Part shown: piece by piece, positions 5,643 through 22,121 of the stretch
Position numbering within the stretch: position 1 is the stretch's first letter
Layout: the number at the start of each line of letters is the position of its first letter
Source: a virus
IMG/VR virus record: IMGVR_UViG_3300032132_000767
Coordinates: 1 to 31,141 of that record
Strand: one strand, 5' to 3'
DNA: 31,141 nt
Notes under the pieces: model-generated
Told to the model about the DNA's origin: nothing
The model's input: the letters and a program-made list of their open reading frames with translations, nothing else
The model's database searches: none
Program-made: the position numbers and the translations under genes

Positions 5643-6214
5643 GCAACGCGCCACACGATTTCTTTTTCGACCATCTGCGCGACGAACTCGAGGCCCTTGT
5701 CACCCGGAAAACGGTTCTGCTGCTCTTCGTTGGTATAGCGCACGTTCTGCGCCTCCTCCCACCGCGCGAGCCGCGACTGGGCTTTGAGCGTGACAGTCGC
5801 CTCCTCGCCGAGCTGAATGTCCATCGTGTCCATCAACCCGTCGAACCACAGCGTCGGATCAGCGATCACCGCGAAATCCGCTTCCATCAAACCAAACCAA
5901 ACGAGGCACGGCCGGCCCTGATAGTCCGCGCCGAGCGCCGATGAAATAAGGTCGTTCGGAATGCCGCGCAGCTGCAGGTCGATCGAGTAGTTCTTGAGCT
6001 CCGAACTTTCCTCGACCACGCTCATGCTGCCGTACTGGCCGACGCCGAGGAAATCGTCCGATGGGCTGCCACTATCGGCGTTGAACGTTAGCGTACGATC
6101 GGTCGAATTGAAGCGCAGCCGGCCGGTCGAGAAGTTCAGTTCCACGGCGGTGAATGGCCGAAAAATGTCCGCCGTCGAGGCCGTCGCCATTCCCGATGTA
6201 AGGTCGCGGCTCAC
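5639..6214 (-). CDS. Tail hub protein (DUF2163-like, GTA g13 position)
   Basis: Protein of 191 residues from a GTG start overlapping the preceding stop (GTGA); ATG at 6190 is the alternative. The start V-S-R-D-L-T followed by a R-P-F-T-A-V-E-L-N-F strand is typical of DUF2163-like phage tail proteins. The C-terminal half reads W-F-D-G-L-M-D-T ... V-T-L-K-A-Q-S-R-L-A-R-W-E, then R-Y-T-N-E-E-Q and F-P-G-D-K-G, a signature of tail proteins in which a baseplate-like domain precedes the peptidase. It is a structural hub component between the distal tail protein and the NlpC/P60-like protein. The family name is by recognition, not by a search. Confidence 0.75.
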   Translation of the reverse strand: MSRDLTSGMATASTADIFRPFTAVELNFSTGRLRFNSTDRTLTFNADSGSPSDDFLGVGQYGSMSVVEESSELKNYSIDLQLRGIPNDLISSALGADYQGRPCLVWFGLMEADFAVIADPTLWFDGLMDTMDIQLGEEATVTLKAQSRLARWEEAQNVRYTNEEQQNRFPGDKGLEFVAQMVEKEIVWRVA

Positions 6215-6831
6215 GTGAACACCTCGACGCCCGAAATGCTGATGCCGTAGATGCTCATCTGGTCGGCGTCCCACGCCGCCTGATCGTCGTCGACCAGCGC
6301 CATTTCGCACACCGCCGAATTGACCGTCAGCGCCGCATTGTCGGCGGGCGCCGACCGGAACGGCGGTTCAATGGTCAGCGTCGCCTCGCCGGACCCGTTC
6401 GAATTGGCGTCCTCAACCACCATGTGCAGCTCGGCGCTCGCATCGCCGTTGGTGAACGAGATGTAGTCGCCGGCGCGCAGGATATTGGTGACGCTCGCGG
6501 TCCAGCCATCGGTCACCAGCGAGCTCCCGGTCTGCGCGGCGCCGTTCACCAAAGGCGTGCCGGTCGCCACGCCGCGCGGTGTTCGAGCGTCCGGGTCGCC
6601 GACGAGAAACCGGTTCGCCCCACCCCGCAGTTTAGCGAGCGCCGCCTGCCACGCCGCCGCCTGCCGGCGCTGCATGGGCGGTAGGGTCGCCGACAATGAC
6701 CAGCGCGCACCCGGCAGCTCACGCGTCTGCACCGCACCATTGAGCGGCGAGATAAACCGCTGTGTGTTGGTGACGAGCGCGAACCGCGATGTCCGGAAAT
6801 CCGGTGCCGTTGGCAGAGCAATGATTGCCAT
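6211..6831 (-). CDS. Distal tail-like protein (GTA g12 position)
   Basis: Protein of 206 residues encoded directly after the tape measure. The N-terminal part (P-D-F-R-T-S-R-F-A-L ... L-P-G-A-R-W-S-L-S-A-T-L-P-P-M) and the C-terminal S-I-Y-G-I-S-I-S-G-V-E-V-F look like the two halves of a beta-sandwich split by an inserted strand-rich region (residues about 85-175). Position and shape fit a distal tail / hub ring protein. I do not recognise a specific family with confidence. AAAGGG lies just upstream of the ATG as a weak ribosome site. It overlaps the next gene by 4 nt. Confidence 0.65.
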   Translation of the reverse strand: MAIIALPTAPDFRTSRFALVTNTQRFISPLNGAVQTRELPGARWSLSATLPPMQRRQAAAWQAALAKLRGGANRFLVGDPDARTPRGVATGTPLVNGAAQTGSSLVTDGWTASVTNILRAGDYISFTNGDASAELHMVVEDANSNGSGEATLTIEPPFRSAPADNAALTVNSAVCEMALVDDDQAAWDADQMSIYGISISGVEVFT

Positions 6832-9013: not shown

Positions 9014-9166
9014 GGATTTTGCCTCTAAAGGTGACGACTTTTTTCGATTTCGAACTTGCTTGCGAGACGTCTTAAGTGCGTCGTTTATTCGATCAGCGCC
9101 GTCTCCGGAAACAGCGAATAACCCGGCTCCAGCAATCGAGTCGTGCCGGTCGCGAAGTGCGCACTG

Positions 9167-9196
9167 ATCTAGCGAATTTCGGTCGGATTAGTTCAA
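9167..9196 (-). promoter_or_regulatory. Candidate sigma70-like promoter for tape measure
   Basis: On the minus strand TTGAAC (9196-9191) and CTAGAT (9172-9167) are 18 nt apart, about 150 nt before the tape-measure ATG. Three plus-strand genes separate the tape measure from the rest of the late operon, so a local promoter would be useful. Weak match; no experimental support. Confidence 0.22.
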
Positions 9197-9237
9197 GCCG
9201 AACCGGAAGGAGATGACAGCGACTTTGTAACCTGTAA

Positions 9238-9594
9238 TTGTTGACCCAAGATAATGATCTCGAAGCGACGATTGGATGTGTGTTGTCTTTTATTCTCGAA
9301 ATTTTGCTTTGGGCGGTTTACCTAGCGCCAAGTATCGTAGCGCGCCTGCTTGGTCACAAAAAATTCTGGATGCTATTCGCACTGAATTTTGTGTCCTTGG
9401 CCATCCCAGTTTTTGCTTTGGAGATGTGGAGCGTCGAGATCGGTATTGTGGCATTCATCGTTTGGTCCACAATTTTTGCCTGGGCAATCGCACCACGGAT
9501 TGACAAACCGGGCTTACTACGTGCGAAGCCAAGTTATGAAGATTCAATCCGGCCTGGCTCGCGATACGGAAAGAACGATGTTGGCCACATTTAG
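9238..9594 (+). CDS. Small membrane protein, Imm-like (possible superinfection exclusion)
   Basis: About 118 residues with three probable membrane segments (about 15-37, 43-62, 66-88) and a hydrophilic tail. V-Y-L-A-P-S-I-V-A-R at about 27-36, followed by a short basic loop and a hydrophobic A-L-N-F-V segment, parallels the arrangement of the neighbouring Imm-like protein at 9632, so the two may be distant paralogues. The start is uncertain: TTG codons at 9238 and 9241, with a GTG inside the first helix as alternative. A strong AAGGAG at 9206-9211 lies too far upstream and serves only a 5-codon frame (ATG 9213). Opposite in strand to the tail genes and AT-rich, hence a moron-like insertion. 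Function inferred, not shown. Confidence 0.6.
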   Translation: MLTQDNDLEATIGCVLSFILEILLWAVYLAPSIVARLLGHKKFWMLFALNFVSLAIPVFALEMWSVEIGIVAFIVWSTIFAWAIAPRIDKPGLLRAKPSYEDSIRPGSRYGKNDVGHI

Positions 9595-9631
9595 TCCCAA
9601 AACCTACGTCTTGCGCTGTTGACTTGCAGAT

Positions 9632-9904
9632 ATGATTGACGTTTATGAGTTCGGGCTTGGTATCGGCTTGTTACTTGCGTTTTGTGTGGCCGTCCCTCTG
9701 TATTTCGCACCCACTATTGTTGCCGCGATCCGCGGCCAGTACCTCTATTGGCCAATTTTCTTTGTTAATTTATTTTTTGGCTGGATATTGGTTGGCTGGG
9801 TAATGGGCTTTGTCTTAGTATTTTCTGAGGCCCCAATCAGGCAAACTTCCGCGTCGCCTCCTCCACCTCCAAACGGCAAGCCTGGCGCAAACGAGGCAAG
9901 CTAG
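9632..9904 (+). CDS. Superinfection immunity protein (T4 Imm-like)
   Basis: Protein of 90 residues with two membrane segments (about 8-32 and 41-66) and a Pro-rich cytoplasmic or periplasmic tail. The core L-Y-F-A-P-T-I-V-A-A-I-R-G (23-35), then N-L-F-F-G-W-I-L-V-G-W-V (46-57), is the pattern of the T4 Imm-type superinfection immunity family: a Tyr-Phe-x-Pro-Thr-Ile helix end followed by N-L-x-x-G-W-x-x-x-G-W. In T4, Imm blocks transfer of incoming phage DNA across the inner membrane; the same job is inferred here. The start ATG has no clear ribosome site. The gene lies in a plus-strand, AT-richer pair inside the minus-strand tail operon, 37 nt after the other Imm-like gene. Confidence 0.75.
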   Translation: MIDVYEFGLGIGLLLAFCVAVPLYFAPTIVAAIRGQYLYWPIFFVNLFFGWILVGWVMGFVLVFSEAPIRQTSASPPPPPNGKPGANEAS

Positions 9905-9909
9905 GAATG

Positions 9910-9953
9910 AACAGCCGGGCTGCGAATTCCTAGGAATTTCCAGATCGGCTGTT
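9910..9953. repeat. Nested palindrome after the Imm-like gene
   Basis: Outer arms AACAGCCG (9910-9917) and CGGCTGTT (9946-9953) enclose a perfect 14-bp palindrome AATTCCTAGGAATT (9925-9938). It lies 5 nt after the Imm-like stop and 13 nt before the stop of the convergent tail-chaperone copy, so it may act as a terminator or mRNA end for either strand, although no U-tract follows. It could also be a recombination or insertion scar. Confidence 0.4.
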
Positions 9954-9966
9954 GTGACCTGCTGCC

Positions 9967-10128
9967 CTCACCCTTCCTCCACCTCACGCTTCCACGCCGC
10001 ATAGTCCTGACGACGCGCCCGTTTCGCCGCCGCGCCCGAGTGATAGTCGTGGGCCACGCGGAACTCGCTGAAGGTCGCGGCCCAGAAGGTGTCTGGGGAC
10101 CAGCCGAAAGCGCCCATCGCCGCTTCCA
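9967..10128 (-). CDS. Second copy of tail assembly chaperone (TAC_6-like)
   Basis: Protein of 53 residues from the ATG at 10128; the homologous frame extends upstream to D-W-R-R-Y without a start codon. The sequence has G-W-S-P-D-T-F-W-A-A-T-F, matching the DUF2376/TAC_6 pattern of a W-x-x-x-M start and a L-S-P-x-x-F-W-x-x-T-P core. It differs from copy 1 (10879-11040) at 7 of 58 aligned residues, with about 9 synonymous codon changes and no indel, so both copies seem to have been kept as protein-coding. The upstream part of the gp10 partner gene is missing: only the last 15 or so codons with the slippery heptamer remain. An ATG at 10230 opens a 27-codon frame into that remnant, which could feed the frameshift. 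Confidence 0.6.
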
Positions 10129-10190
10129 TGTAGCGCCGCCAGTCTAGCTTGTCGGACTCGGCGGCGCTTTCGGGTTTCCCGCATCCGCCT
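9967..10190. repeat. Direct repeat, copy 2 (224 bp, tail chaperone region)
   Basis: Pairs with 10879-11102 at a constant offset of 912 bp with no gaps. I count about 25 mismatches by hand, mostly in third codon positions. It contains the end of the gp10-type gene, the GGGAAAC heptamer (here 10173-10179 on the opposite strand) and the whole TAC_6-like frame. The plus-strand gene 10376-10858 lies between the two copies. Confidence 0.9.
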
Positions 10191-10375
10191 CAACGCGCTT
10201 TAAGTACGATTCGAGGTCGAGCGATATCATTCCTCGACGCATGGCTCTTCGCTGATGTGCGCGAATTGTCAGCGATGCGTTGGGTCAAGTCGCATGACGG
10301 CGCGGCCATTCCGAGTTGTTTTTCGGTGAAATATTCACGCTTTACCTGCAGAATGAACCCAGCTAGCGTTCCGCA

Positions 10376-10858
10376 ATGTCTGGTATTCGGCAATCCTGGT
10401 TTGCGGCGGCCTGCGCAGCGGCGATCCTCGCTCTGGCAGCTTATGGGCTCTACGCCTCTTATGATCCGTCTCGGAGCGAGAGGTATGAAGAGCTACTCAA
10501 GCAATACGACGAAGGTACTGGAGGTGTTGACACCTCGGACCCAGCTTTGCGCGCGCTAATCGATGCTATTTATGCCACCCAAGAAAATAGAGTGTTGGGT
10601 GCGACCGCCGATTGGCTTTCGTCATGGGTTCGCGCCGAGCCCATCGGAGCCCTTATCGTAATTTCTCTTGGTTTGGCCGCATTCGGCGGCTTGTTGCTGC
10701 TACCACTCCTTATGTGGCGCAGCGTTCGGAGCTTGAGGGAAATTGCTGACAACCAACGTGTTCAAATCAGATTGCTTAACAGGGCAATCAATGAGGCCGA
10801 GCTACGGCGCGAGAGCGAAACTACGACATCGCACGAGCCATTAACGAGCGGCAGTTGA
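10376..10858 (+). CDS. Two-TM membrane protein in the duplicated tail locus
   Basis: Protein of 160 residues. One membrane segment at about 9-28 and a second at about 91-115 flank a 60-residue soluble loop with many acidic residues (Y-D-P-S-R-S-E-R-Y-E-E-L), and a charged helical tail follows (about 116-150). If the N-terminus is cytoplasmic, the loop faces the periplasm. I recognise no family. The gene is opposite in strand to the tail operon, has weaker third-position GC than its neighbours, and is bracketed by two copies of the tail chaperone. Its stop lies 20 nt from that of chaperone copy 1 (convergent). The ribosome site is weak. The setting, next to two Imm-like genes, suggests a superinfection-exclusion or other prophage-expressed role, as an inference only. 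Confidence 0.6.
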   Translation: MSGIRQSWFAAACAAAILALAAYGLYASYDPSRSERYEELLKQYDEGTGGVDTSDPALRALIDAIYATQENRVLGATADWLSSWVRAEPIGALIVISLGLAAFGGLLLLPLLMWRSVRSLREIADNQRVQIRLLNRAINEAELRRESETTTSHEPLTSGS

Positions 10859-10878
10859 TTCAATCCGTCGTGCCGCAC

Positions 10879-11040
10879 TTACCCCATCTCCACCGTCCGC
10901 TTCCACACCGCGTAGTCCTGACGACGCGCCCGTTTCGCCGCCGCGCCCGAATGATAGTCGTGCGTCGCGCGGAACTCGCCGAACGTCGCGGCCCAAAACG
11001 TGTCCGGCGACCAGCCGAAAGCGCCGAGCGCCGCTTCCAT
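10879..11040 (-). CDS. Tail assembly chaperone, frameshift partner (TAC_6-like), copy 1
   Basis: Frame of the DUF2376/TAC_6 type: D-W-R-R-Y-M-E-A-A-L-G-A-F-G-W-S-P-D-T-F-W-A-A-T, then a basic A-K-R-A-R-R patch. The first ATG (11040) gives only 53 residues and cuts off the conserved D-W-R-R-Y; there is no ribosome site and no alternative start upstream, while the frame stays open back to 11112. The frame is exactly -1 relative to the gp10-type gene (11055-11459), and both are open at the GGGAAAC site. I therefore infer that it is made mainly as the C-terminus of a frameshift fusion of about 193 residues (lambda gpGT-like), which holds the tape measure and recruits the major tail protein during assembly. 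Confidence 0.75.
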   Translation of the reverse strand: MEAALGAFGWSPDTFWAATFGEFRATHDYHSGAAAKRARRQDYAVWKRTVEMG

Positions 11041-11054
11041 GTAGCGCCGCCAGT

Positions 11055-11459
11055 CTAGCTCGTCGGACCCGGCGGCGCCTTCGGGTTTCCCGCGTCCGCC
11101 TCCGCTGGCGTTTGGTCACCGCCTGTATCCGCGCCATCCGCCGCCGCGTCCGCGGAGTCGCTGAACGCCGCGCCCAGAAACTCACCGAGGGAGCCAAGCA
11201 AGCCGACGATGCCGGCATCGATCACCATCTCGCCGACCTTGTCGTAGCTCGGCGGTTTCTTCTCCACTGCCTTGATGCCGGCCTGGACGATCACCGCCAC
11301 GTCGCGTACCCCGACCGAGCCCTGGGCCAGCCGGCGCACCAGCGCGATCAGCCCTTCGCCGAGCTCGCTCTCGATCTCGCACAGCGCCTGAAAGGTCGGC
11401 CTGAGCACCCAATCGCGGCCGCCCAGGCTGAGCGTGATTTCGCCTCGCGCTTTGTTCAT
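11055..11459 (-). CDS. Tail assembly chaperone, GTA gp10-type (TAC_11-like)
   Basis: Protein of 134 residues. G-E-I-T-L-S-L-G-G-R-D-W-V-L-R-P-T-F-Q-A at about 6-25, followed by C-E-I-E, is the signature of the GTA-gp10 / Phage_TAC_11 family. The helical core runs to about 100 and the acidic, Ala/Asp-rich tail ends the short form. It starts 8 nt after the major tail protein stop. In the lambda scheme it corresponds to gpG: a chaperone that binds the tape measure in the cytoplasm and is absent from the finished tail. Near its end (codons 124-125) lies G GGA AAC in the reading phase needed for -1 slippage. Confidence 0.85.
   Translation of the reverse strand: MNKARGEITLSLGGRDWVLRPTFQALCEIESELGEGLIALVRRLAQGSVGVRDVAVIVQAGIKAVEKKPPSYDKVGEMVIDAGIVGLLGSLGEFLGAAFSDSADAAADGADTGGDQTPAEADAGNPKAPPGPTS
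11085..11091 (-). promoter_or_regulatory. Programmed -1 frameshift heptamer GGGAAAC
   Basis: On the minus strand the gp10-type frame reads GCG GGA AAC CCG, so the heptamer G GGA AAC fits X XXY YYZ exactly. Slipping back one base gives GGG AAA CCC GAA and enters the TAC_6 frame, which stays open to 10879. Such sites (GGGAAAG in lambda G/T) are conserved in long-tailed phages. The duplicated copy keeps the same heptamer. Confidence 0.75.
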
Positions 11460-11467
11460 GAGCCGGC

Positions 11468-11884
11468 TTACTGTTTGTTAAACACGACGATGCCGTCGTT
11501 CTGTAGCGTCAACGAATATTCCACCGCGCCGGTATGCGTGCCATTCTCGGAGAACGCGGTCACGTTGAACGTGCCTTCGTAGTAGCTGCCATTGGCGTCG
11601 ACCAGCAGGCGGTAGTTGCCGGTGGTGCGGTTCATCGAGCTCGTGCGCATGGCGTCAAGCTGCAAATCCGCGACGTCGGTGACGCCGCTGGTATTGACCG
11701 TCGCATTCGACAGCACGGACAATGTGCCGCCCCACCCCGCGTTCGATTTATCAGTGATATCCGCCGTGGTCAGATCCAGGCTCAGCGAGCCGTCCTGCTG
11801 GCCTTGCAACGTGGTAAACACCTCAGGCGAGCCACCGCCCTGCCCGACCTGTAGCAATACGTTAACACCGGATTGTTTCGCCAT
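11468..11884 (-). CDS. Major tail (tube) protein
   Basis: Protein of 138 residues, TP901-1 / GTA g9-like. It has G-V-N-V-L-L-Q-V-G near the start, T-T-L-Q-G-Q-Q-D-G-S-L-S-L, I-T-D-K-S-N-A-G-W near residue 43, and the final A-V-E-Y-S-L-T-L-Q-N-D-G strand pair typical of tail tube subunits. It polymerises into the tail tube. The ATG is preceded by GGGGA at about 9 nt. Only 15 nt separate the ATG from the U-tract of a terminator-like hairpin that ends the sugar cassette, an unusual place for one of the most abundant virion proteins. Confidence 0.88.
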   Translation of the reverse strand: MAKQSGVNVLLQVGQGGGSPEVFTTLQGQQDGSLSLDLTTADITDKSNAGWGGTLSVLSNATVNTSGVTDVADLQLDAMRTSSMNRTTGNYRLLVDANGSYYEGTFNVTAFSENGTHTGAVEYSLTLQNDGIVVFNKQ

Positions 11885-11898
11885 TCGTCATCCCCATG

Positions 11899-11923
11899 AA
11901 AAAAGGGCCGCTTCCTGGCGGCC
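11899..11923 (-). terminator. Rho-independent terminator-like hairpin before major tail gene
   Basis: On the minus strand GGCCGC (11923-11918), a 6-nt loop CAGGAA, GCGGCC (11911-11906), one C, then six T (11904-11899). It lies 46 nt after the last sugar-cassette gene and 15 nt before the major tail ATG. Full termination would starve the tail genes, so partial read-through, antitermination or a protective 5' hairpin is likely. Confidence 0.75.
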
Positions 11924-11968: not shown

Positions 11969-12679
11969 TTATGCCGCTACATACGCCGTTGAGGCCGCCC
12001 GCCAGTCGTCGGCGAAATCGACCTCGCCATAAGCGCCGCCGAACCACGGCCCGCCCAAGGTAAAGTGCACCGCCTTCGGATCGGCGCATTGGTCCACCGT
12101 GTTGTGGCCGACCAGATAGTTCCATTCGAGCGGCAAGCTGCCGATCTCGCCATCGTCAAGCCAGCGGAAGCCGTGCAGATCCAGCCCCGTCGCCCGCGCG
12201 ACGTATCCCGGCGTCAACCGCGCGTTCGCCGGATGCGCCGCGTTCCACAGCACCAGGCTCGACCAGTTCTTGCGCGCATAAGCCGTCTGCGCCACACCGT
12301 CCATCTTGGCCGTCTCGCACGGTCGATGATCGTGCTTCACCGCCATCGCCGCAAAGCGATCATCGGCCAGCACGAACAGGTCCGCCACCGAGGCGCGAAA
12401 CAAAAAATCCGCATCGACAAACAGGTGCCACCCGCGATAGCTCACGAGATACGGCACCAGGAACCGCGAAAATGAAAATTCAGTCGAGAACGGCGCGCCG
12501 GTCACGCCGTCGATGAACTGACCTTCCTCGCGTTGGTATGGCCGGTGATACACCGCCGCAACATCGGCATCGGTGAGTCTCAGCAGCCGCGCCTCAACGT
12601 CCGCACAATGCCGCAGGATCGACCACCGGCACACCTCGGCGGCCAGATGTTCGCGCGGATCGTAACCGACAAAGATCAC
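11969..12679 (-). CDS. Glycosyltransferase, GT8-like (GT-A fold)
   Basis: Protein of 236 residues from a GTG that overlaps the previous stop (GTGA). It begins V-I-F-V-G-Y-D-P-R-E, has F-S-R-F-L-V-P-Y-L at about 70-78 and the metal-binding D-A-D at 89-91 (W-H-L-F-V-D-A-D-F-L-F), then W-S-S-L-V-L-W-N-A and near the end V-H-F-T-L-G-G-P-W-F, an arrangement typical of GT8-type hexosyltransferases. It should use a nucleotide sugar; acceptor and sugar cannot be told. Last gene of the sugar cassette, followed by the terminator-like hairpin. An upstream frame extension to 12766 overlaps the previous gene and is not needed. Confidence 0.75.
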   Translation of the reverse strand: MIFVGYDPREHLAAEVCRWSILRHCADVEARLLRLTDADVAAVYHRPYQREEGQFIDGVTGAPFSTEFSFSRFLVPYLVSYRGWHLFVDADFLFRASVADLFVLADDRFAAMAVKHDHRPCETAKMDGVAQTAYARKNWSSLVLWNAAHPANARLTPGYVARATGLDLHGFRWLDDGEIGSLPLEWNYLVGHNTVDQCADPKAVHFTLGGPWFGGAYGEVDFADDWRAASTAYVAA

Positions 12680-13413
12680 GCCGCCGGCCGTTCCCGCGAC
12701 GCGCCAATGGTTTTGCGCGCGCCTTTGAGGTGATCCATGTATTGCCCGAGCGGCGATTGAAACCACACATGCCCGCGCCCGCTCGGTGTCAGATCACGCC
12801 CCGTGATCCCGGTCGCGCCGCGCGCCTGGTCGAACGCATAAGCCGAATGCCACTCGAGCAAGTCGAACACCGTATCGCTCGCGTACAAATCGGCGTAGGC
12901 GTCGATCAACCGCCGCGCCTCGGGCAATCGGAACGCGATAAATCCCGTCTCCGAATGTTTCGGAACGCGCCCGAGATAGGCCACATCCGCATCGCCGATC
13001 AAACCTTCAACGAAGCCTTCCGGCACGTCGCGATAGGTCATCACGTCCGCGTCCAGCCAGACCAAAATCCCATCACCGAGGTCTCGCGCGGCATCGCGCG
13101 GGATCATCGCCATGCGGCAGAACTTCCAGGCGTCGAAGCGATAGCAGTACCCCGCACGCCGATCCTTGGCGCTCCAGCCCGGTCGCGGCTCTCGACCATT
13201 CGCCGCCACATTGCCGCGATGGCGATCGAGAAACGCGGCGCATCCCGGAATGTCGAACAAAGACCTGCATTCGCCACGCGGCACTTCAGTGCGTTCCTCG
13301 GTATAAACCTTGAGGTCGACCGATCGCGGCCAATGGCGATCGAAGCTTTCGAGAAACCGTTCGCCATACAAGCGATATCCGGATTGAGAGAAGCCGGTAC
13401 ACACCGTCACCAT
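12676..13413 (-). CDS. Glycosyltransferase with DxD motif (GT-A type)
   Basis: Protein of 245 residues. The ATG at 13413 overlaps the upstream SDR stop by 7 nt. It begins with M-V-T-V-C-T-G-F-S-Q-S-G-Y-R-L-Y-G-E-R-F, as in transferases that scan for the sugar donor, with W-L-D-A-D-V at 119-124 as the metal/donor motif and a preceding Y-R-F-D-A-W-K-F helix. The C-terminus has S-E-T-G-F-I-A-F-R and a H-S-A-Y-A-F-D segment. It transfers a sugar to an unknown acceptor. It is translationally coupled on both sides, which ties it to the oxidoreductase/SDR pair and the next transferase as one unit. Confidence 0.72.
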   Translation of the reverse strand: MVTVCTGFSQSGYRLYGERFLESFDRHWPRSVDLKVYTEERTEVPRGECRSLFDIPGCAAFLDRHRGNVAANGREPRPGWSAKDRRAGYCYRFDAWKFCRMAMIPRDAARDLGDGILVWLDADVMTYRDVPEGFVEGLIGDADVAYLGRVPKHSETGFIAFRLPEARRLIDAYADLYASDTVFDLLEWHSAYAFDQARGATGITGRDLTPSGRGHVWFQSPLGQYMDHLKGARKTIGASRERPAA

Positions 13414-14024
13414 GTATGTCGTCCCCCGTTTATCCGGATCACCGTGTTGGTAATCGCGCCCTCGTCCTCGTAGAGCAGAAAGCGGATCAGCCGCGCGACC
13501 TCGATCGCGCTCAAGTAACACCGCCTGGGCTCTTCACGCGCCCGCTCGCGCAGCGCCGCCAGGTCGTTCCGCCGCCGCGTCATGCCGCCGTCCCAAATAA
13601 TGTGCGGCGCCACCGCGACGAGCTGTTGCCCCGGCGCCAGCGCCCGCGTCTCGACATAGCGATGCAGCCCCGCCTTCGCGACCGCGTAGGTCGTGTCGTA
13701 CGACCCTTTGAACCCCGACTCCGACCCCACTACGCAAATCCGCGCCGTTAGTTTCGCGTCTAGCACCGCCTCGCAAATCCGCACCGCCGAAATCAGATTG
13801 ACCGCCAGGCTCTCGCACACCTCGGCCGCGGTCTGCGCGGCAATCGGTGCCTGGTGCAGCACGCCAGCACACAACAGAAAGCGATCGCCATCCACCGCCA
13901 CCGGCTGCTCGCCGAGCGTCGCCAGATCATTGTCGAGCCGTACCACCTGCTCGCCAGCCGGCAACAGCGTACGAACCGCCTCAACGATCCGCGACCGCGC
14001 CCCGGTCACATGCAAGACTCCCAT
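13407..14024 (-). CDS. Short-chain dehydrogenase/reductase (SDR)
   Basis: Protein of 205 residues, short for the family. The N-terminus M-G-V-L-H-V-T-G-A-R-S-R-I is a reduced T-G-x-x-x-x-I cofactor loop. L-L-C-A-G-V-L stands where N-A-G usually lies, and S-E-S-G-F-K-G-S-Y-D-T-T-Y-A-V-A-K contains the catalytic Ser, Tyr and Lys (Y-x-x-x-K at about 116-120). The end I-R-I-N-G-G is the normal SDR C-terminal strand. It probably oxidises or reduces a sugar or sugar nucleotide with NAD(P). The ATG overlaps the oxidoreductase stop by one base (TGATG). Confidence 0.78.
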   Translation of the reverse strand: MGVLHVTGARSRIVEAVRTLLPAGEQVVRLDNDLATLGEQPVAVDGDRFLLCAGVLHQAPIAAQTAAEVCESLAVNLISAVRICEAVLDAKLTARICVVGSESGFKGSYDTTYAVAKAGLHRYVETRALAPGQQLVAVAPHIIWDGGMTRRRNDLAALRERAREEPRRCYLSAIEVARLIRFLLYEDEGAITNTVIRINGGRHTW

Positions 14025-15016
14025 CAGGGCTCGATCAAATGCTTGATCTCGCGTTCGGCCAACAGGATCGCGTCGATTTTGCCCGCGCGGACTCGCAGGC
14101 TCCGTTCACCCGTGCGCACGATGTCGACCAGACGCGCATCGGCCCCACTTCGCGGCATGGCGCGGATCGACAATTTGTAATCCGCGATCTCGTAGTCTTC
14201 CCGCACTGCCGGATAGAACCGCGCCATCGACGCCATCATGCACTCGGTGCGATGATCAATCTCCTCACGCGTCACACTGTCGAGCATGGCGCGCGCGGCC
14301 TCGCGGCTCCGGCATGATTTCGAAAACGGCGTCCAGCGCGCCGAGGTCAGGCTGCTCAGCCCGCGCTCCTCATGCCACGGATAGAGCGACGGAAACGGCC
14401 CGTCCATAACCGTCACCGCGCGATTGGTCGGCCCCCGCAGCAGCACCATCAGGCACGGCTCGTAGCGGTCGATATCGCGGCCATCGCGCGCGCAGAACGT
14501 ACAGTCGATGGTCCAGTCCCACACCGCATGGTCGCCCGGGCCAGGCGCGACGCCGAAGCGAACATGACCGTCGAGCAGCTCCGAAAAATGCGCCCGCGCC
14601 CGCTCGATCACGATATGCCGCTCGCCGGTGAGCACGGCGCCCTCGACATTCGCGAGCCCAAACTCCGCCGGCCGTTCAATCGTGACGAACTGTGTCTCTC
14701 GCGCCAGAATGTCACAATAGGTGCCGAAATCGATCAAGCTGTCCTGCGCCGCGATCGCATAGATATTGACCGGCACCCCTCGGGTGAGCGCGCCGTAGCG
14801 TTCCATGAACGCCGCGTGATGCTCCTGGCACAGCGCCCGGGTCAGCCGCGACCGCGGATAATGAAACCCGCCATGCAACCGCGCCGGATTGGCCCCACTT
14901 GCCCCGGCGAACAGTTCGTCCGCTATTTCATGCAGCTCAACCCGATGCCCCTCGGCCAGCAAACGCGCCGCCAAATGACACCCATACCAACCACCCCCGA
15001 GGATACGGATTTTCAT
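14024..15016 (-). CDS. FAD-dependent oxidoreductase (DAO-like)
   Basis: Protein of 330 residues. ATG at 15016 overlaps the previous stop (ATGA). The first residues M-K-I-R-I-L-G-G-G-W-Y-G-C-H-L-A form a Rossmann dinucleotide loop, followed by a conserved acidic residue after H-R-V-E-L-H-E, and A-S-G-A-N-P-A-R-L-H-G-G-F-H-Y-P typical of D-amino-acid-oxidase-type flavoproteins found in polysaccharide clusters. The substrate is unknown. Next to an SDR it could form a two-step sugar or amino-sugar redox modification. A longer reading to 15046 runs into the preceding gene and is rejected. Confidence 0.75.
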   Translation of the reverse strand: MKIRILGGGWYGCHLAARLLAEGHRVELHEIADELFAGASGANPARLHGGFHYPRSRLTRALCQEHHAAFMERYGALTRGVPVNIYAIAAQDSLIDFGTYCDILARETQFVTIERPAEFGLANVEGAVLTGERHIVIERARAHFSELLDGHVRFGVAPGPGDHAVWDWTIDCTFCARDGRDIDRYEPCLMVLLRGPTNRAVTVMDGPFPSLYPWHEERGLSSLTSARWTPFSKSCRSREAARAMLDSVTREEIDHRTECMMASMARFYPAVREDYEIADYKLSIRAMPRSGADARLVDIVRTGERSLRVRAGKIDAILLAEREIKHLIEP

Positions 15017-15855
15017 GGGTCGAGCTGCGGTCGAATGGTGTTCCACATCTCTCCCGAAGCCATTTCATTAAGGGTCCACTGGCAATAGGCAAGGTCGGCG
15101 AACCACTGGCGCCGCGTCTGTTCCGACGGCCAGAATGGGCGATCGATGTCAGCGATACGGTGCGCGGCGACGGGGCGAGCGATGCCAGGACCGAGAACGA
15201 TCGCCGGCACGCCGGCGAGGATCGCGTCGAGCGCGGCGTTGCTCGAATGCGTCACCAGCACGAAGCAACGCTTCAGTTCGTCCGCGAGCGTTGTCGGCGG
15301 TCGCGAAAATGCGACGCCGTCGATCGGCATCGCGTCGCGCCATGTCGGCTTGGGACGATGGATCACCGGCTTGTCGGTGATCGCGTGGATCTGCTTGATC
15401 ACGCCGCGCGCATAAGCCGTGCAATCTCCGAGCCCATGAAAATCGCAATGTTTCTGGCTCGATCCCGCGAACAACACGCGGTCGCCGAACCATCGCGGCG
15501 CCGGCGTAAAAGCCAGCGCACGAGCACGGTCGTCGGGCCGCCGTTCGCGCTGGAATGTCGACAGTGGCATGTCGGCATCAACCGAAACCCGCCACAACGC
15601 CTCACCATTTACCTTTTGCCGCGTGTGCCCCTTGTCGAAAAACAGAACATGTTTGCCAGCCGCGCGATGGTCATCGAGCAGACGCCGCGAAATCCCCTTC
15701 ACCCCAAACACGCAGCCGACCTCACCAACGGGCGCGCGATAGTCTTCGACGGCGCGCACTTCGAAACCGTCGCCGCCCGCGAGCACCGCCTTCCCGAGCG
15801 CCGCTGCAATCCGGTCCTCGCGCGGCTTGCCAGCCGACCAGAATGTGACGTTCAC
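15013..15855 (-). CDS. Capsule-type glycosyltransferase-like protein, paralogue 3
   Basis: Protein of 280 residues from GTG at 15855, which overlaps the previous stop (GTGA). N-terminus V-N-V-T-F-W-S-A-G-K-P. Shared motifs with the genes at 15852 and 17418: H-R-P-K-P-T-W in the middle, V-T-H-S-S-N-A-A-L-D-A-I-L-A-G-V-P at about 201-217, and a C-terminal F-A-D-L-A-Y-C-Q-W-T-L-N-E-M-A-S-G. The Ser-Asn-Ala-x-x-x-A-x-x-x-G-x-P element resembles the donor-binding part of KpsC/KpsS-type and other GT-B capsule transferases. Likely role: adding one sugar of the same glycan as its paralogues. Activity and donor are inferred. Confidence 0.68.
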   Translation of the reverse strand: MNVTFWSAGKPREDRIAAALGKAVLAGGDGFEVRAVEDYRAPVGEVGCVFGVKGISRRLLDDHRAAGKHVLFFDKGHTRQKVNGEALWRVSVDADMPLSTFQRERRPDDRARALAFTPAPRWFGDRVLFAGSSQKHCDFHGLGDCTAYARGVIKQIHAITDKPVIHRPKPTWRDAMPIDGVAFSRPPTTLADELKRCFVLVTHSSNAALDAILAGVPAIVLGPGIARPVAAHRIADIDRPFWPSEQTRRQWFADLAYCQWTLNEMASGEMWNTIRPQLDP

Positions 15856-16622
15856 ACCAAGCCTTCGCCGACCAAATAGTCCCAGCAGGCACCGGACGCC
15901 ATTTCGGGCACCGACCATTGGCAGTAGGCGAGATCGGCAAGAAATTCGGCGCGACCGCCAGGCAACGGCGGGTCGTCGAGATGATCGAGGCTCGGCATCG
16001 ACAACAACGAGGCCGCGCCGTCTTCGCAGTAGACCGGAATACCGGCCGCCAGCGCGTCGACCGCGGCGTTCGAATGGTGCGTCACCAGCGCCCAGCAGTC
16101 GCGAAGATACTGCCGAATATCGGTGCCGCCACGATGAAACGCCGTGCCGCTGATCGGCCGCGCGCCATCCCACGACGGTTTTGGTCGATAGCGGATCGCC
16201 CGCTCCGTGTGTTTTTTGATTTCCTCAATCGCCCGACGCTCCCAGGCCTCGGGCGCAAAGCCATTGACCGCCGCCGATCGGTCGCTCATGCCGGCAACGA
16301 TGATATGCTCGCCCCGTTTCCGCCACGGTTTGAGCCGCACGCCGATCTGGTTGAGCCGATCGGGAGAATGCCCGGCGCGCAAATACGCGGTCGGGTGCAA
16401 GGCATTCACCGAAACCTTATGATAGCCGCCGAAGCGATCCTTCGCCGGCTTACGGTTCCAATAGCCGAGATCCATATAGACCGCCGTGGTGGCACTGCGG
16501 TAGGCCTCGAATACCTCGCGCAAACCCAGCCTGAGGCCATAGAAAATCGCCACATCAGCCTCAACCGCGCCGCTGAACGTCACGCCGTTGCGTATCTCGG
16601 GCGTGATCCCGTGCCGGCGCAA
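15852..16622 (-). CDS. Capsule-type glycosyltransferase-like protein, paralogue 2
   Basis: Closest to the protein at 15013: both have R-P-K-P-[ST]-W, V-T-H-[HS]-S-N-A-A-x-D-A and a D-L-A-Y-C-Q-W near the end. The start given (TTG, 256 residues) is probably too late: the same frame continues upstream with V-A-I-Y-R-D-D-G-K-E-R-A-R-R-I at 16688-16644, a convincing N-terminal strand and helix, but offers no ATG or GTG before the stop at 16737-16739. Initiation at CTG 16715 or another non-standard codon, or translation coupled to the methyltransferase stop at 16708, would explain it. A start-site mutation is also possible. Confidence 0.65.
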   Translation of the reverse strand: MRRHGITPEIRNGVTFSGAVEADVAIFYGLRLGLREVFEAYRSATTAVYMDLGYWNRKPAKDRFGGYHKVSVNALHPTAYLRAGHSPDRLNQIGVRLKPWRKRGEHIIVAGMSDRSAAVNGFAPEAWERRAIEEIKKHTERAIRYRPKPSWDGARPISGTAFHRGGTDIRQYLRDCWALVTHHSNAAVDALAAGIPVYCEDGAASLLSMPSLDHLDDPPLPGGRAEFLADLAYCQWSVPEMASGACWDYLVGEGLV

Positions 16623-16707
16623 CCCCCGTTGCCAGGCATCGCAGATCCGCCGCGCCCGTTCCTTGCCGTCGTCACGATAAATGGCGACGCGTGGAAACCC
16701 GGACCGC

Positions 16708-17454
16708 CTAGACAGACTCGAAAGCCATATTCTTGATCACACGCCAGCGCGCCTTGGCGGGCTTTCTGGTTGCCACTTTAAGGCCGACACTGTCCGCCCA
16801 GCCAAGCCAGTCGACACGGTCGATCTTCGCCATGTCAGCGGCGTCACGTTTGATGAAAAAGCAATTGATGCCCGAGCTATCGACAGTGACGAAGCGATAA
16901 CCCAACGGCTCCCACAGCCGTCTCCACGCGGCCACCGAGGCGCCGAAATAGAAATGTTTCAGGCCGCGCGGCCGCTCAAACGGATAGCGGTAGGTCACCG
17001 TGATCGGCCGCGCGCCGAACGCGGCGTTGTACTCACATATCGCAATCTTGGGCCCGAACCCCGCCACCACCATCGCCTCGGCGACATGCCAGTCGATCGA
17101 ATCGATATCGATCGAGAACACATCTGGATCGGGCATTAACGCGGCGAACGTGAGCGCCGACTTGCGTTCCGCCGGCATCGCGAGCGTCTGCACATTGTGC
17201 AACCCCTCGATCGCGCAGAAGGCTCGGAACGCCTCAAGCCGCTTTGCTTCACGATCGATCGCCAGGCCGAACCAACCTTGCTTGGCGAGCCACGTGCAAT
17301 TGTTGCGCTTACCGTTGCCGCAGCCGATTTCCAAATACCGCCGCTCGCACTCGTATAGCGCGCTCACCAGATACGCGATGATGCCGTCCTCGCCGTTCTG
17401 GCTGTGCACCCGCTTCTCTATGGTGGCGAGCGCAACAATGTCTTGATCGCCCAT
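16708..17454 (-). CDS. SAM-dependent methyltransferase, FkbM-like
   Basis: Protein of 248 residues. S-Q-N-G-E-D-G-I-I-A-Y-L at about 18-29, motif I Y-L-E-I-G-C-G-N-G at 40-48, then G-W-F-G-L-A-I-D-R-E (SAM ribose-binding acidic end), and V-F-S-I-D-I-D-S-I-D-W near 112 make up a class I methyltransferase fold of the type found in LPS and capsule clusters. Probably an O-methylation of a sugar. The ATG at 17454 overlaps the previous gene by 37 nt, with GAGAGCGG just upstream as ribosome site. It separates two of the three paralogous transferases. Confidence 0.75.
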   Translation of the reverse strand: MGDQDIVALATIEKRVHSQNGEDGIIAYLVSALYECERRYLEIGCGNGKRNNCTWLAKQGWFGLAIDREAKRLEAFRAFCAIEGLHNVQTLAMPAERKSALTFAALMPDPDVFSIDIDSIDWHVAEAMVVAGFGPKIAICEYNAAFGARPITVTYRYPFERPRGLKHFYFGASVAAWRRLWEPLGYRFVTVDSSGINCFFIKRDAADMAKIDRVDWLGWADSVGLKVATRKPAKARWRVIKNMAFESV

Positions 17455-18248
17455 CCGCTCTCAATCTCTTCCACGGAAAATTGCGACCAGGCGAGCCGGG
17501 CGAACGCCGGCAAGCGATCGGGATATGACGGATGGTCAAGATTCGTGAGCCCGGCTTCCGCCGCGCCCCGCGTGACGATGTTCGGCCCGCAATAAAAGGT
17601 CGGTATCCCGGCGAGCAGGGCTTCGGTCGCCGCATTGCTCGTGAACACCACCACCGCCCAGCACTCTCGCAAATGCGCCGCGAGCGGTTCGGTGAAATCG
17701 ACCACACGGTCGTAAGCCGCGCTCGGCATCCGCCGCCGCCGTTTAGGGTGCGGTCGAAACCAGACCGGCCGGTCGGAATGCCGCCTGATCTCGGGCAGAA
17801 CCCGGTCGGGCCAGTCATCCGGCATCGCCATGGCGTTGTAGCCGAAGCCACGTTGGCCACAGACCAGAGTGTGCGATCCGCTTTCGCGCCATGGATTGAC
17901 CGGAATGCGCCAGGCGTTCCAGCGCTCCACGCTGCCAATCGTATGCCGGCTGTTACCATTGTGACCGCCGAGACCGAGGGCGAGATACCGTTCGCCACCG
18001 ATCTCCCGCAGGTACGCTTCCTCGCAGACAATGTGCCGGCCAACCAGTTCGCCAAGCCGCTGATTGTTGCCGTAACTGTTCCAGCTCACCAGCACATCAT
18101 CGGGACCCGGCGCAACGGGCACCGCCTTGCGCACCGCAAACCCGGCACGGGCAAACCCTTGCTCTATGACGTGGTGCCGGCCATCCTCGAAGCGGTCAGG
18201 CAGCCGGCTCCAGCAAGTCGGCGAGGTCGGCGGTCGGGAAACAGGCAA
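17418..18248 (-). CDS. Capsule-type glycosyltransferase-like protein, paralogue 1
   Basis: Up to 276 residues from TTG; the true start is uncertain because the first 25 residues overlap the preceding gene and look non-conserved, while homology with the paralogues seems to begin near R-F-E-D-G-R-H-H-V-I-E-Q-G. It shares W-F-R-P-H-P-K-R, V-F-T-S-N-A-A-T-E-A-L-L-A-G-I-P-T-F and a final A-W-S-Q-F-S-V-E-E-I-E-S-G with the proteins at 15013 and 15852 but is more divergent. The R-P-[HK]-P and S-N-A-A-x-[ED]-A motifs recall KpsC/KpsS-like sugar transferases. Expected to act in the cytoplasm on a nucleotide-sugar donor. Confidence 0.66.
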   Translation of the reverse strand: MPVSRPPTSPTCWSRLPDRFEDGRHHVIEQGFARAGFAVRKAVPVAPGPDDVLVSWNSYGNNQRLGELVGRHIVCEEAYLREIGGERYLALGLGGHNGNSRHTIGSVERWNAWRIPVNPWRESGSHTLVCGQRGFGYNAMAMPDDWPDRVLPEIRRHSDRPVWFRPHPKRRRRMPSAAYDRVVDFTEPLAAHLRECWAVVVFTSNAATEALLAGIPTFYCGPNIVTRGAAEAGLTNLDHPSYPDRLPAFARLAWSQFSVEEIESGWAIKTLLRSPP

Positions 18249-18906
18249 TCGCGCTTCCCCGCGTACAATTGATCACCTCGACCCCGCGTGTCTTGAGCGG
18301 CGCCACGAGAGTCTCGAAATGTGGCAGCATGGCGCTGTCATATGTGCTCGCTCGTGTCGGAACCGGATGATCGCCGAACCAGTGCGACGCACCGTCCGCC
18401 GCAAATTTCATGTCGTAGCCAAGCAGCACGACGCGCGTGCACCCCAGATGCACCGCCAGATTGATGCACTGATAGCCGCTATTGCGCCCCGTGCGTAGCC
18501 CATCGGGCCCCTGGCACAAACCGCCTGCCACGCCCGCCTTGTCATCATTGCGCAAAATCTTGACCGGCTCGGGCAATGGCGGTTCAGCGGCGGTCGGCGC
18601 CAACCTCACCTTGGTCCCGGAAAAGCCCCGAAACGCCGGCTCATTAGCATGCCAGCGATACCATTTTGTATCACAGAAATAGAGCAGCTCGGCGAATAGA
18701 CACAGCCGATAAGCGTCATTGATCGCGATCACCCGCCGCCCTTCGAGCACCGAACAGTCAACCTCACGCAAGCTCGGCCCGCCAGCGACAATGAAACAAG
18801 TCTCACCGCGCCACAAAGGCGGCACGCGCCAATACTCAGTCAACGATGTTAGGTACTTGCGATTGTCAAGCGACCTGCGTCGCGACCTCGAAGGTCTGCA
18901 CGCCAT
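18196..18906 (-). CDS. DUF115/MAF-like or sialyltransferase-like protein
   Basis: Up to 236 residues. C-F-I-V-A-G-G-P-S-L (37-46) then V-I-A-I-N-D-A-Y form the nucleotide-binding start seen in DUF115/MptE-like and CST-type sialyltransferase-like proteins. N-S-G-Y-Q-C-I-N-L-A, V-V-L-L-G-Y-D-M-K and H-W-F-G-D-H-P follow in the usual order; the last His may be catalytic. Such proteins occur in phages and in flagellin- or surface-glycan loci. The start is uncertain: ATG 18906 lies 41 nt inside the tail-terminator gene and its first 20 residues look non-conserved, so a later TTG is possible. First gene of the nine-gene cassette. Confidence 0.7.
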   Translation of the reverse strand: MACRPSRSRRRSLDNRKYLTSLTEYWRVPPLWRGETCFIVAGGPSLREVDCSVLEGRRVIAINDAYRLCLFAELLYFCDTKWYRWHANEPAFRGFSGTKVRLAPTAAEPPLPEPVKILRNDDKAGVAGGLCQGPDGLRTGRNSGYQCINLAVHLGCTRVVLLGYDMKFAADGASHWFGDHPVPTRASTYDSAMLPHFETLVAPLKTRGVEVINCTRGSAIACFPTADLADLLEPAA

Positions 18907-19273
18907 GCCGCGTCAACCCATCGGCATCCAGCATCAACTCGGACTTGGTGAACCGGATCCACGCAAGCTCATGCCCGGTAACGGTCAACCCAGCCCAGTG
19001 CAAGGCCGCTGCCACCGCGCCCATAATCTCCTTCGCCTCCGTCGCGCCGCGCGCCCGCGACCAAGTATGAACGCGCAAAGCTTGCATCATGCCGCCCTTA
19101 AGCTTGTCATCAAACGGCACGCCCGAGGTCTCGCCGATCACCAAATAAGGAAACACGCTATCCGCGGGCACATGATCAAACACCCGCGCCCCAACAAGCG
19201 CCGCGACCCCAGCATCTCCGACCAAGGCCCCGTGTACGGCCGATTGCACGGCCGCCTGCGCGTCACCTGTCAT
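18866..19273 (-). CDS. Tail terminator / tail completion protein (DUF3168)
   Basis: Protein of 135 residues, the usual size of DUF3168. It has V-G-A-R-V-F-D-H-V-P near 28, F-P-Y-L-V-I-G-E near 41, and V-H-T-W-S-R then A-K-E-I-M-G-A-V-A-A-A-L as the beta-strand/helix pair of this family (GTA g8). It caps the tail tube where it joins the head. In GTA-like phages the major tail protein gene follows directly; here a 7 kb sugar cassette intervenes. 58 nt separate it from the head-closure gene. Confidence 0.85.
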   Translation of the reverse strand: MTGDAQAAVQSAVHGALVGDAGVAALVGARVFDHVPADSVFPYLVIGETSGVPFDDKLKGGMMQALRVHTWSRARGATEAKEIMGAVAAALHWAGLTVTGHELAWIRFTKSELMLDADGLTRHGVQTFEVATQVA

Positions 19274-20609: not shown

Positions 20610-22121
20610 TCAGTTCAATCTCCGTCGGTCGCCAGGCGGTATGACGCTACCGCGATCGCCGGCGCCAGGCGTTCCTATTTGGTTACCGCCGGGGCTGAAT
20701 GTGCGTTCCTCGCCCGGACTCGCGATGCGCAACCCGCGCGGCGTGAATGTCCGAGACGTCGCACCCACCTGACTGTCGGGGCCAGCGTGGGTGCCGCTCG
20801 CCGACTGCGTCAGTGCCGGAAAAATTTGCGCGCTGGTGACATTGATCAGTTCGATGCCAGCCGCAAATTGTGTAACGGCGGGCAACCCCTGCGCGCCGAC
20901 TGCGGCAAGAGCGTGCCCGCCCGACGCGGACTGCAGCGCTGCCGCCAGCACCTGGCTGGCAGTGCCCGCAATCGTCTGACCGCCGCCCGCCTCTTGTACC
21001 ACTGACGGTAAGATGATCGCGGCGGTACCAGGTTGCGCCTGTTCACCAGATCCCGCTTGCGTGGCTGCCGGCAAATTCTGCACCGCGGCGCCAATCGCGT
21101 CACCTGACTCGCCGCTGCCCGCCTGGGTGGCGCTGCGCAAGGTCTGGGCAGCCGCACCGCCATGCGTTTGCTCGGCGACGGCAGCTTGGCCGAGCGACGG
21201 CACGGTCTGCGCCCCAGCGCCGGGCTGTGTTTCAACGCCCGCGCCCGCCTGGGTGGCAGCGGCAAGGGTCTGAGCGCCGGACCCGGTGGCGCTCGCGTCG
21301 GTATGTGTTCCAGCAGCTGCTTGGGATATGGACGCCAGTGTTTGAGCGCCGGCGCCCTCAAAAGCGGATTTGCCGCTGCCCGCGTGATTGAGGCTCGGCA
21401 GTGTCTGAACACCGGCACCCGACAACGTTTGGCCGCCAGTCCCCGTTTGCGTCGTCGCCGGCAGTGCCAGCGCGCCAGTGCCCTCTGCTGGTTGGGTTCC
21501 CGTGCCAGTCTGGGTGGTCGACGGCAGGGTCTGGGCGCCGACGCCGTCGGGCTGCATAACGCCACCACCGGCCTGGGTGAGCGACGCCAAGGTCTGAGCG
21601 CCGGTGCCAGAAGGCGTCGAGGCGACGGTGTAATGGACCTTGATCTCGCCGTGATCGACGCGCGCGGTGATCCCGAAAAGAAACGAGGTGTTGTCGGCTG
21701 CAACAGCAAAGCCAAACGTGCTCGCCTCGACATCACTTTCGGTAAGAGTGACGCTCCAAAGATCAGCCGCACCGCCATAGGTGGCTAGGGCGTCAGTTGT
21801 CGGCCACGTACCGGCGACGGCCTTATTGTCGCCTGACTTGCTGCCGCCCTTGATGAGCCGAATAACGCCGTCAACGACCGTCCCGAGTCCGCTCGTCTGG
21901 CTTCGCTCGAAGCGGACCTCAACACCGTCGGGCGTTGCGCCGGCCGGCAGCGACGCGCCGAAATTGGTAAATTCGAGGTAGTCTGTGTCCTCATTCTTGG
22001 CCAGAGCCGCGGTGGCGTAGGAATTATCCGACGCACCGGCATTGCTGGGGTTTGTCCACGCTATACCACGACTGTTGACGCTGCTTATGGTGCCGGCGCT
22101 AAGCCATCCGGTGTCAGCCAT
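20610..22121 (-). CDS. Repeat-containing virion fibre-like protein
   Basis: Protein of 503 residues in three parts. Residues about 1-170 form a beta-rich domain with a lectin-like look (D-Y-L-E-F-T-N-F-G, G-V-E-V-R-F-E-R, F-G-F-A-V-A-A-D-N). Residues 172-450 are thirteen repeats, mostly of 21 residues, with consensus G-x-G-A-Q-T-L-P-S-x-T-Q-A-G-x-G followed by a variable part. A 53-residue Arg/Gly/Pro tail holds T-F-T-P-R-G-L-R-I and T-F-S-P-G-G-N-Q-I, a double motif. No family recognised. It lies in the head module, so a head fibre or decoration protein is most likely. The ATG overlaps the previous stop by 8 nt. Confidence 0.7.
   Translation of the reverse strand: MADTGWLSAGTISSVNSRGIAWTNPSNAGASDNSYATAALAKNEDTDYLEFTNFGASLPAGATPDGVEVRFERSQTSGLGTVVDGVIRLIKGGSKSGDNKAVAGTWPTTDALATYGGAADLWSVTLTESDVEASTFGFAVAADNTSFLFGITARVDHGEIKVHYTVASTPSGTGAQTLASLTQAGGGVMQPDGVGAQTLPSTTQTGTGTQPAEGTGALALPATTQTGTGGQTLSGAGVQTLPSLNHAGSGKSAFEGAGAQTLASISQAAAGTHTDASATGSGAQTLAAATQAGAGVETQPGAGAQTVPSLGQAAVAEQTHGGAAAQTLRSATQAGSGESGDAIGAAVQNLPAATQAGSGEQAQPGTAAIILPSVVQEAGGGQTIAGTASQVLAAALQSASGGHALAAVGAQGLPAVTQFAAGIELINVTSAQIFPALTQSASGTHAGPDSQVGATSRTFTPRGLRIASPGEERTFSPGGNQIGTPGAGDRGSVIPPGDRRRLN
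20772..21608 (-). repeat. Thirteen degenerate 63-bp tandem repeats (coding)
   Basis: In-frame repeats inside the 503-residue protein. Unit lengths by hand are 21 residues in ten units, and 24, 22 and 23 in units 5, 9 and 13. Units are diverged at DNA level; the most constant residues are Ala-Gln-x-Leu and Thr-Gln-Ala/Ser. The later units (10-13) are the most divergent. Confidence 0.85.

Follow-up and report, generated by a model that had tools for sequence, protein, structure and literature searches.

Within the late genes of a 31,141-base virus record (IMGVR_UViG_3300032132_000767; the window, which holds mainly late genes) we identified nine genes, g1-g9, that probably form a phage-borne glycan assembly cassette decorating a virion protein in late infection. 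The late gene run is on the minus strand, and the cassette (18906 to 11969, all nine genes co-directional on that strand) lies between the genes for the tail terminator and the major tail protein (MTP). A first-pass annotation had proposed nine same-strand sugar-modification genes at this place in the late structural run; Pfam and PHROG matches confirmed both flanks, and decoration of the virion was the best explanation for the genes between them. From upstream to downstream, the cassette and its borders are:

18866-19273 (-): tail terminator, upstream border (Pfam Tail_completion_gp17, 7e-29; phrog_176, 1e-17)
18196-18906 (-): g1, MptE-like/DUF115, GT42/Maf-like; candidate priming (protein O-) glycosyltransferase (phrog_4603; PF01973 in relatives)
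17418-18248 (-): g2, paralogue 1 of a KpsC/WbbB-like GT-B transferase family (alignment; TTG start uncertain)
16708-17454 (-): g3, S-adenosylmethionine (SAM)-dependent methyltransferase, optional member (weak Methyltransf_25/23, TehB-like)
15852-16622 (-), N-terminus probably to ~16715: g4, paralogue 2 of the KpsC/WbbB-like family (alignment, g4 clade)
15013-15855 (-): g5, paralogue 3, KpsC/KrkA/WbbB CMP-Kdo-transferase-like fold (Foldseek, profile)
14024-15016 (-): g6, flavin adenine dinucleotide (FAD)-dependent (DAO-type) oxidoreductase, marker of the cassette core (Pfam DAO, 3.4e-6)
13407-14024 (-): g7, short-chain dehydrogenase/reductase (SDR), Ser...Tyr-x3-Lys kept (adh_short_C2, 1e-10)
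12676-13413 (-): g8, putative GT-A glycosyltransferase, invariant DxD (motif conservation)
11969-12679 (-): g9, GT8-like glycosyltransferase, invariant DxD (phrog_28018, 4e-59)
11906-11923 (-): terminator-like GC hairpin plus T run in the g9/MTP gap (fold of gap, z 0.47)
11468-11884 (-): MTP, downstream border, possible acceptor (phrog_1407, 8e-21)

Conservation of the cassette in other phages

The relatives we compared were uncultured contigs, often partial, whose genes were called with open reading frames (ORFs) and hidden Markov models built from this window; divergent loci may contain genes that escaped labelling, the order counts leave out loci with too little DNA on the side concerned, and the numbers of loci are not estimates of frequency since the scans depend on conserved peptides. 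A scan with g6 found 46 viral contigs, which fell into 37 clusters at 90% identity. Upstream of g6, at least two genes of the g2/g4/g5 type were present in 24 of 25 loci and g1 in 17 of 25, while downstream g8 was present in 40 of 41 loci and g7 in 38, with g7, g8 and g9 following g6 in that order in 29 of the 41. Recurrence of one gene order across dozens of loci ruled out a chance arrangement, and it was this multi-gene synteny, not unrelated single morons, that we observed in related phages. The cassette occurs broadly among uncultured phages, and in some prophages too, at several sites; the initial impression of an unusual or one-off insertion found no support.

Searches with g1 reached more widely. 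Eighty loci were kept from a scan of viral contigs, and a morphogenesis gene lay on the g1 strand within the fetched DNA in 76 of these and in all 44 loci on bacterial or archaeal genome contigs; in a first survey, for which both strands were searched, every labelled gene of the fetched loci was on the g1 strand. The commonest flanks of g1 were MCP and Ad1 (30), Ad1 and Ttm (22), and portal and Ad1 (15), MCP being the major capsid protein. In 31 loci the neighbours of g1 included many glycosyltransferases and methyltransferases, plus matches to sulfotransferase, pyruvyltransferase and epimerase. Since the ORFs that separate g1 from the structural gene after it include many such enzymes, g1 is a marker of a broader class of sugar-gene blocks, and g6, unlike g1, picks out the specific cassette of the window.

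Other searches returned little: megablast of 22 kb against phages found nothing, a g6 search of the GenBank phage collection gave one partial fragment only, and scans that used the terminator, g9 or g3 as single proteins gave few relatives, the terminator alignment holding no stretch conserved enough to search with. Only 5 of 385 genomes of one class had g6-like proteins. In one bacterial genome a g6-like gene adjoins a g7-like SDR gene (L195:8652-10447), and in another a g6 homologue lies among genes resembling heptose-type sugar genes (L194:9499-10509); the context is bacterial in both, and that of L193 is ambiguous. Literature searches, with subscription papers mostly outside their reach, yielded no description of this cassette.

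Insertion sites and exchange between backbones

Cassettes were found at the following sites:

Between MCP and Ad1: L137, L141, L142, L147, L155
Before the MTP: the window, L148 (with g3), L149
Ahead of portal and terminase genes (terminase by position): L196-L198
Upstream of tail tubular proteins: podovirus-like L150/L153

The g6 of the window is 64% identical to that of L155, whose portal and MCP are 29% and 24% identical to those of the window, and overall it is nearest to the g6 of phages with portal and MCP just 22-31% identical (an 83% match to the L147 MTP is a short local alignment and was not used). Since g6 is closest in phages with dissimilar portal and MCP, we conclude that the cassette core moves between phage backbones. 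Likewise, the better matches of g6-g8 are on unrelated backbones. Prophages of Kiloniellaceae metagenome-assembled genomes (L093, L095, L096 and L102) have the terminators (54-55% identity) and proteases (49-52%) closest to those of the window, with portals 41-42% identical; they carry a shorter set (g1, g2, sometimes g5, g9) at the same site between terminator and MTP, and no g6 match was found in the genomes that harbor them. L009 is nearer to the window in portal (48%), and its terminator and MTP genes are adjacent, leaving the site empty. Prophage similarity alone suggests that the host may be a Kiloniellaceae-like alphaproteobacterium.

Predicted activities of the encoded proteins

Most of the nine proteins look like transferases or sugar enzymes. 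The product of g1 had been called DUF115-like; in Pfam it scored below the curated cut-off of PF01973 (29.2 vs 34.6 bits, with only residues 137-169 matched), but the assignment is favored by 49 of 51 relatives that match PF01973 (E≤0.01) and by a match of g1 residues 40-233 to phrog_4603 (2e-45), whose name, "alpha-2,3-sialyltransferase," comes from annotation and not from assay. The sialyltransferase CstII accounted for seven of the nine weak matches of the g1 profile in the PDB (E 0.4-0.9), and the GPSL, N, SG and LGxDM motifs kept in g1 can be aligned to it. This likeness agrees with the published Cst-II-like structure of the central domain of Maf_flag10 (pfam01973; PMC11339370), and Maf enzymes can place Neu5Ac or Kdo on Ser/Thr of flagellin (PMC11339370). 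An AlphaFold2 model of g1 was confident (predicted local distance difference test score, pLDDT, 89.8), and a Foldseek search with it gave no significant PDB match; its Rossmann-like matches were not accepted as evidence.

The three transferases that the first-pass annotation described as capsule-type (g2, g4 and g5) do resemble KpsC, in sequence as well as fold. The best PDB match by Foldseek to the AlphaFold2 model of g5 (pLDDT 87.5) was KpsC (2e-8, probability 1.00), with KrkA and WbbB also matched, and the profile of the g2/g4/g5 family matches KpsC at 4e-5. In the alignment g4 and g2 are 31% and 26% identical to g5, respectively; a GT-B fold of the KpsC/WbbB family is predicted for g5 from its modelled structure and for g2 and g4 from their homology with it. 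In a gene tree across loci g2, g4 and g5 fall in largely separate groups, indicating that the three copies are old and have been kept, and relatives of g2 are present in Caulobacter jumbo phages. Judged by sequence alignment only, the residues of the window's g2, g4 and g5 aligned with the catalytic nucleophile of KpsC (D160) are not Asp, and distant paralogues such as those of L082 and L018 retain it. Before any ATG, GTG or TTG is reached, the reading frame of g4 is already open and resembles g4 (16622-16718, minus strand; 'VAIYRDDGKERARRIC'), so g4 may use a non-canonical start, e.g., CTG at ~16715, or the record may contain a sequence error.

For g3 the suggestion of an FkbM-like enzyme found no support, as the Pfam scan gave no match to FkbM (PF05050); its matches to Methyltransf_25/23 (E about 0.01) and TehB (0.026) fit a generic SAM-dependent methyltransferase of unclear subfamily. 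A g3 homologue lies inside the L148 cassette. The SDR assignment was confirmed, and that of a flavin oxidoreductase is supported. The g6 profile matches DAO-type oxidases (3e-5), and GGG-YGC is invariant in the g6 alignment of 15 sequences; the Pfam DAO score of 27.2 bits, against a curated cut-off of 27.9, covers the N-terminal FAD-binding part only. The product of g7 matches SDRs in the PDB at 1e-10, with S101, Y113 and K117 invariant. The last two genes had been read as DxD transferases, and the motif is indeed invariant across relatives of each. In g8 these invariant positions are D121-x-D123, H189 and HLKG, and profile matches are weak; its best PDB match, a PBCV-1 glycosyltransferase, was dropped as not significant (E 0.54). 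In g9 they are D89-x-D91, and there is a PDB match to the GT8 enzyme GlyE (0.007); Glyco_transf_8 was found in 12 of 19 g9 relatives (E≤0.1, best 1e-6), the window's g9 itself not matching.

Gene layout and expression

The claim that nearly every junction in the cassette is a stop-start overlap is true of five of the eight. By ORF inspection these are g4/g5 (GTGA), g5/g6 (ATGA), g6/g7 (TGATG), g7/g8 (ATGGTGA) and g8/g9 (GTGA); the g1/g2 and g2/g3 overlaps are longer (53 nt and 37 nt), and the g3/g4 junction has no clear canonical start. Longest ORFs over-extend the N-termini of several genes (g5, g8, g9). The GC content and base composition of the cassette are those of the adjoining structural genes. 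A single transcriptional unit with the tail genes, as first envisaged, is a conjecture. A terminator-like hairpin lies in the g9/MTP gap, though the gap folds no better than shuffled sequences (z-score 0.47). A similar hairpin is visible between g9 and the MTP in L093. Rfam and tRNA scans were empty.

Simple hydropathy revealed no strong hydrophobic or membrane segment in any of g1-g9, and the enzymes therefore appear to be soluble.

A proposed role in virion glycosylation

In the scheme we favor, cytoplasmic enzymes would assemble an O-linked glycan on a protein of the virion. The donors would be host-made nucleotide sugars, since the cassette contains no genes for nucleotide-sugar synthesis, and its place among morphogenesis genes points to late expression. 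The product of g1 would start the chain by transferring a sugar, perhaps an ulosonic acid activated with CMP (host Kdo, for example), onto Ser/Thr of one of the structural proteins; adding further residues would fall to g2, g4 and g5, each its own orthologue group; g6 and g7 would oxidise or reduce a sugar, g3 would methylate one, and g8 and g9 would add hexose-type residues. Likely acceptors would be abundant exposed proteins (the major capsid, capsid-surface and tail-tube proteins), and the likely benefit an altered particle surface, affecting stability, adsorption or shielding. More tentatively, and with the odds against so specific a version, this may be a mobile phage system common to siphovirus-like, podovirus-like and prophage lineages, in which a Maf-like enzyme primes Ser/Thr of capsid or tail proteins with host CMP-Kdo or a similar donor and the KpsC-like paralogues, together with the redox, methyl and hexosyl enzymes, elaborate the chain.

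Between MCP and Ad1 the window encodes a 503-residue protein (20610-22121, minus strand) with many degenerate Gly/Ala/Ser/Thr/Gln repeats of ~22 residues, which is a possible glycan acceptor.

Several points count against virion decoration. Glycosylation of the particle is here a prediction from gene content, and since insertion sites vary, the acceptor cannot be read from where the cassette lies. Priming by g1 is a guess, given the weak likeness to CstII and the lack of a significant Foldseek match, and a CMP-Kdo donor for g2, g4 and g5 is uncertain because these lack the catalytic Asp of KpsC. Any early or lysogeny genes fall outside this mainly late window.

The main rival, possible but less likely than virion decoration and in our judgment improbable, is that the cassette modifies host surface polysaccharide (lipopolysaccharide or capsule) in the style of serotype conversion, so that released virions avoid debris or superinfection is excluded. 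KpsC/WbbB-like and GT8-like enzymes do serve bacterial surface polysaccharide synthesis, the bacterial g6 homologue of L194 has heptose-type-looking sugar genes around it, and cytoplasmic lipid-linked intermediates could serve as substrates for enzymes of this sort. However, that the genes sit with virion genes in phages of siphovirus-like, podovirus-like and jumbo type implies expression near lysis, and by simple hydropathy the cassette encodes no membrane protein, flippase or polymerase, unlike serotype-conversion gtrABC systems with their flippase and membrane glucosyltransferase; related sets also occur in Caulobacter jumbo phages, which are lytic.

Glycosylation or other hypermodification of phage DNA seems to us very unlikely. 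Some clusters of phage glycosyltransferases do hypermodify DNA (Pyle 2024, as cited in PMC12619734), but the cassette has no base-hydroxylating or hydroxymethylating gene (early genes lie outside the window), and its enzyme families (Maf/CstII-like, KpsC-like, GT8, SDR, DAO) suit sugar chains better. Least credible is that these genes for bacterial polysaccharide are hitch-hiking or decaying at a site that tolerates insertions, functionless in the phage: the several insertion sites and the non-canonical g4 start might be read that way, but dozens of loci, at 40-65% identity, have open frames and conserved catalytic motifs, gene order is conserved and GC content matches the backbone.

To our knowledge, virion glycosylation is thought rare in tailed phages. 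If the cassette does decorate virions, a conserved, transferable set in dozens of uncultured phages, plus some prophages, would make such glycosylation common, its g6-g7-g8-g9 core would be a genetic marker for finding it, and the benefit of a sugar coat, be it in stability, in adsorption or in evading binding proteins or grazers, would become open to test. The cassette might also be a source of soluble protein O-glycosyltransferases useful in glycoengineering.

Comparison with known systems

Glycosylation of phage virions is already known; this cassette appears not to have been described. In mycobacteriophages Che8 and Rita, capsid and tail-tube subunits are glycosylated (Freeman 2023, as cited in PMC11256854 and PMC12619734), and their virion glycans come from phage-encoded glycosyltransferases, the genes for which lie near the genome 3' end in the related F1 phage Maravista. 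By comparison, the window's cassette has nine genes, of other enzyme families, inside the morphogenesis genes, and glycosylation is inferred from those genes. Although g1 belongs to the PF01973-related group, like the Maf (MAF_flag10, PF01973) flagellin O-glycosyltransferases, and keeps motifs alignable to those of GT42 CstII, it has about 210-236 residues, which make up the central domain only; the domains that flank it in Maf are lacking, and the activity of g1 is a predicted one. Similarly, g5 resembles KpsC, KrkA and WbbB in fold and profile, but the window phage has three paralogues side by side, in which the catalytic Asp is not conserved.

Among phages, the very large Caulobacter phages CcrColossus and CcrBL9 have homologues of g1, g2, g5 and g9 and a methyltransferase after their tail genes but lack the g6-g7-g8 core; in searchable papers we found no description of this sugar set as a cassette. 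Phage D3 (L003) has a DUF115-type g1 homologue, orf7 (5762-6409), between its major head protein and head-tail adaptor genes, but as a single gene only. In Tetraselmis viridis virus S20 a g1 homologue adjoins the major capsid gene, with several sugar genes there, but the gene set differs.

Other features of the window

Ahead of the cassette the window runs from a small terminase gene (by position) through TerL, portal, protease, MCP, several capsid-region genes and Ad1 to the tail terminator, and after it from the MTP through a tail chaperone-type gene, the tape measure and distal tail genes to a J-like protein. A 232-nt stretch is repeated at 9960-10191 and 10871-11102 (88% identity, 911 nt apart). 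The repeats surround lower-GC DNA (region 9014-10840) that has the tail chaperone region on one side and the tape measure gene on the other, and plus-strand ORFs for small membrane-like proteins occur in this repeat region (9238-9594, 9632-9904 and 10376-10858); from its sequence, 9014-10840 looks like an inserted moron with a duplicated flank. Near the terminase end, the product of 29180-29794 (minus strand) matches a metallo-protease PHROG (phrog_87, 5e-9).

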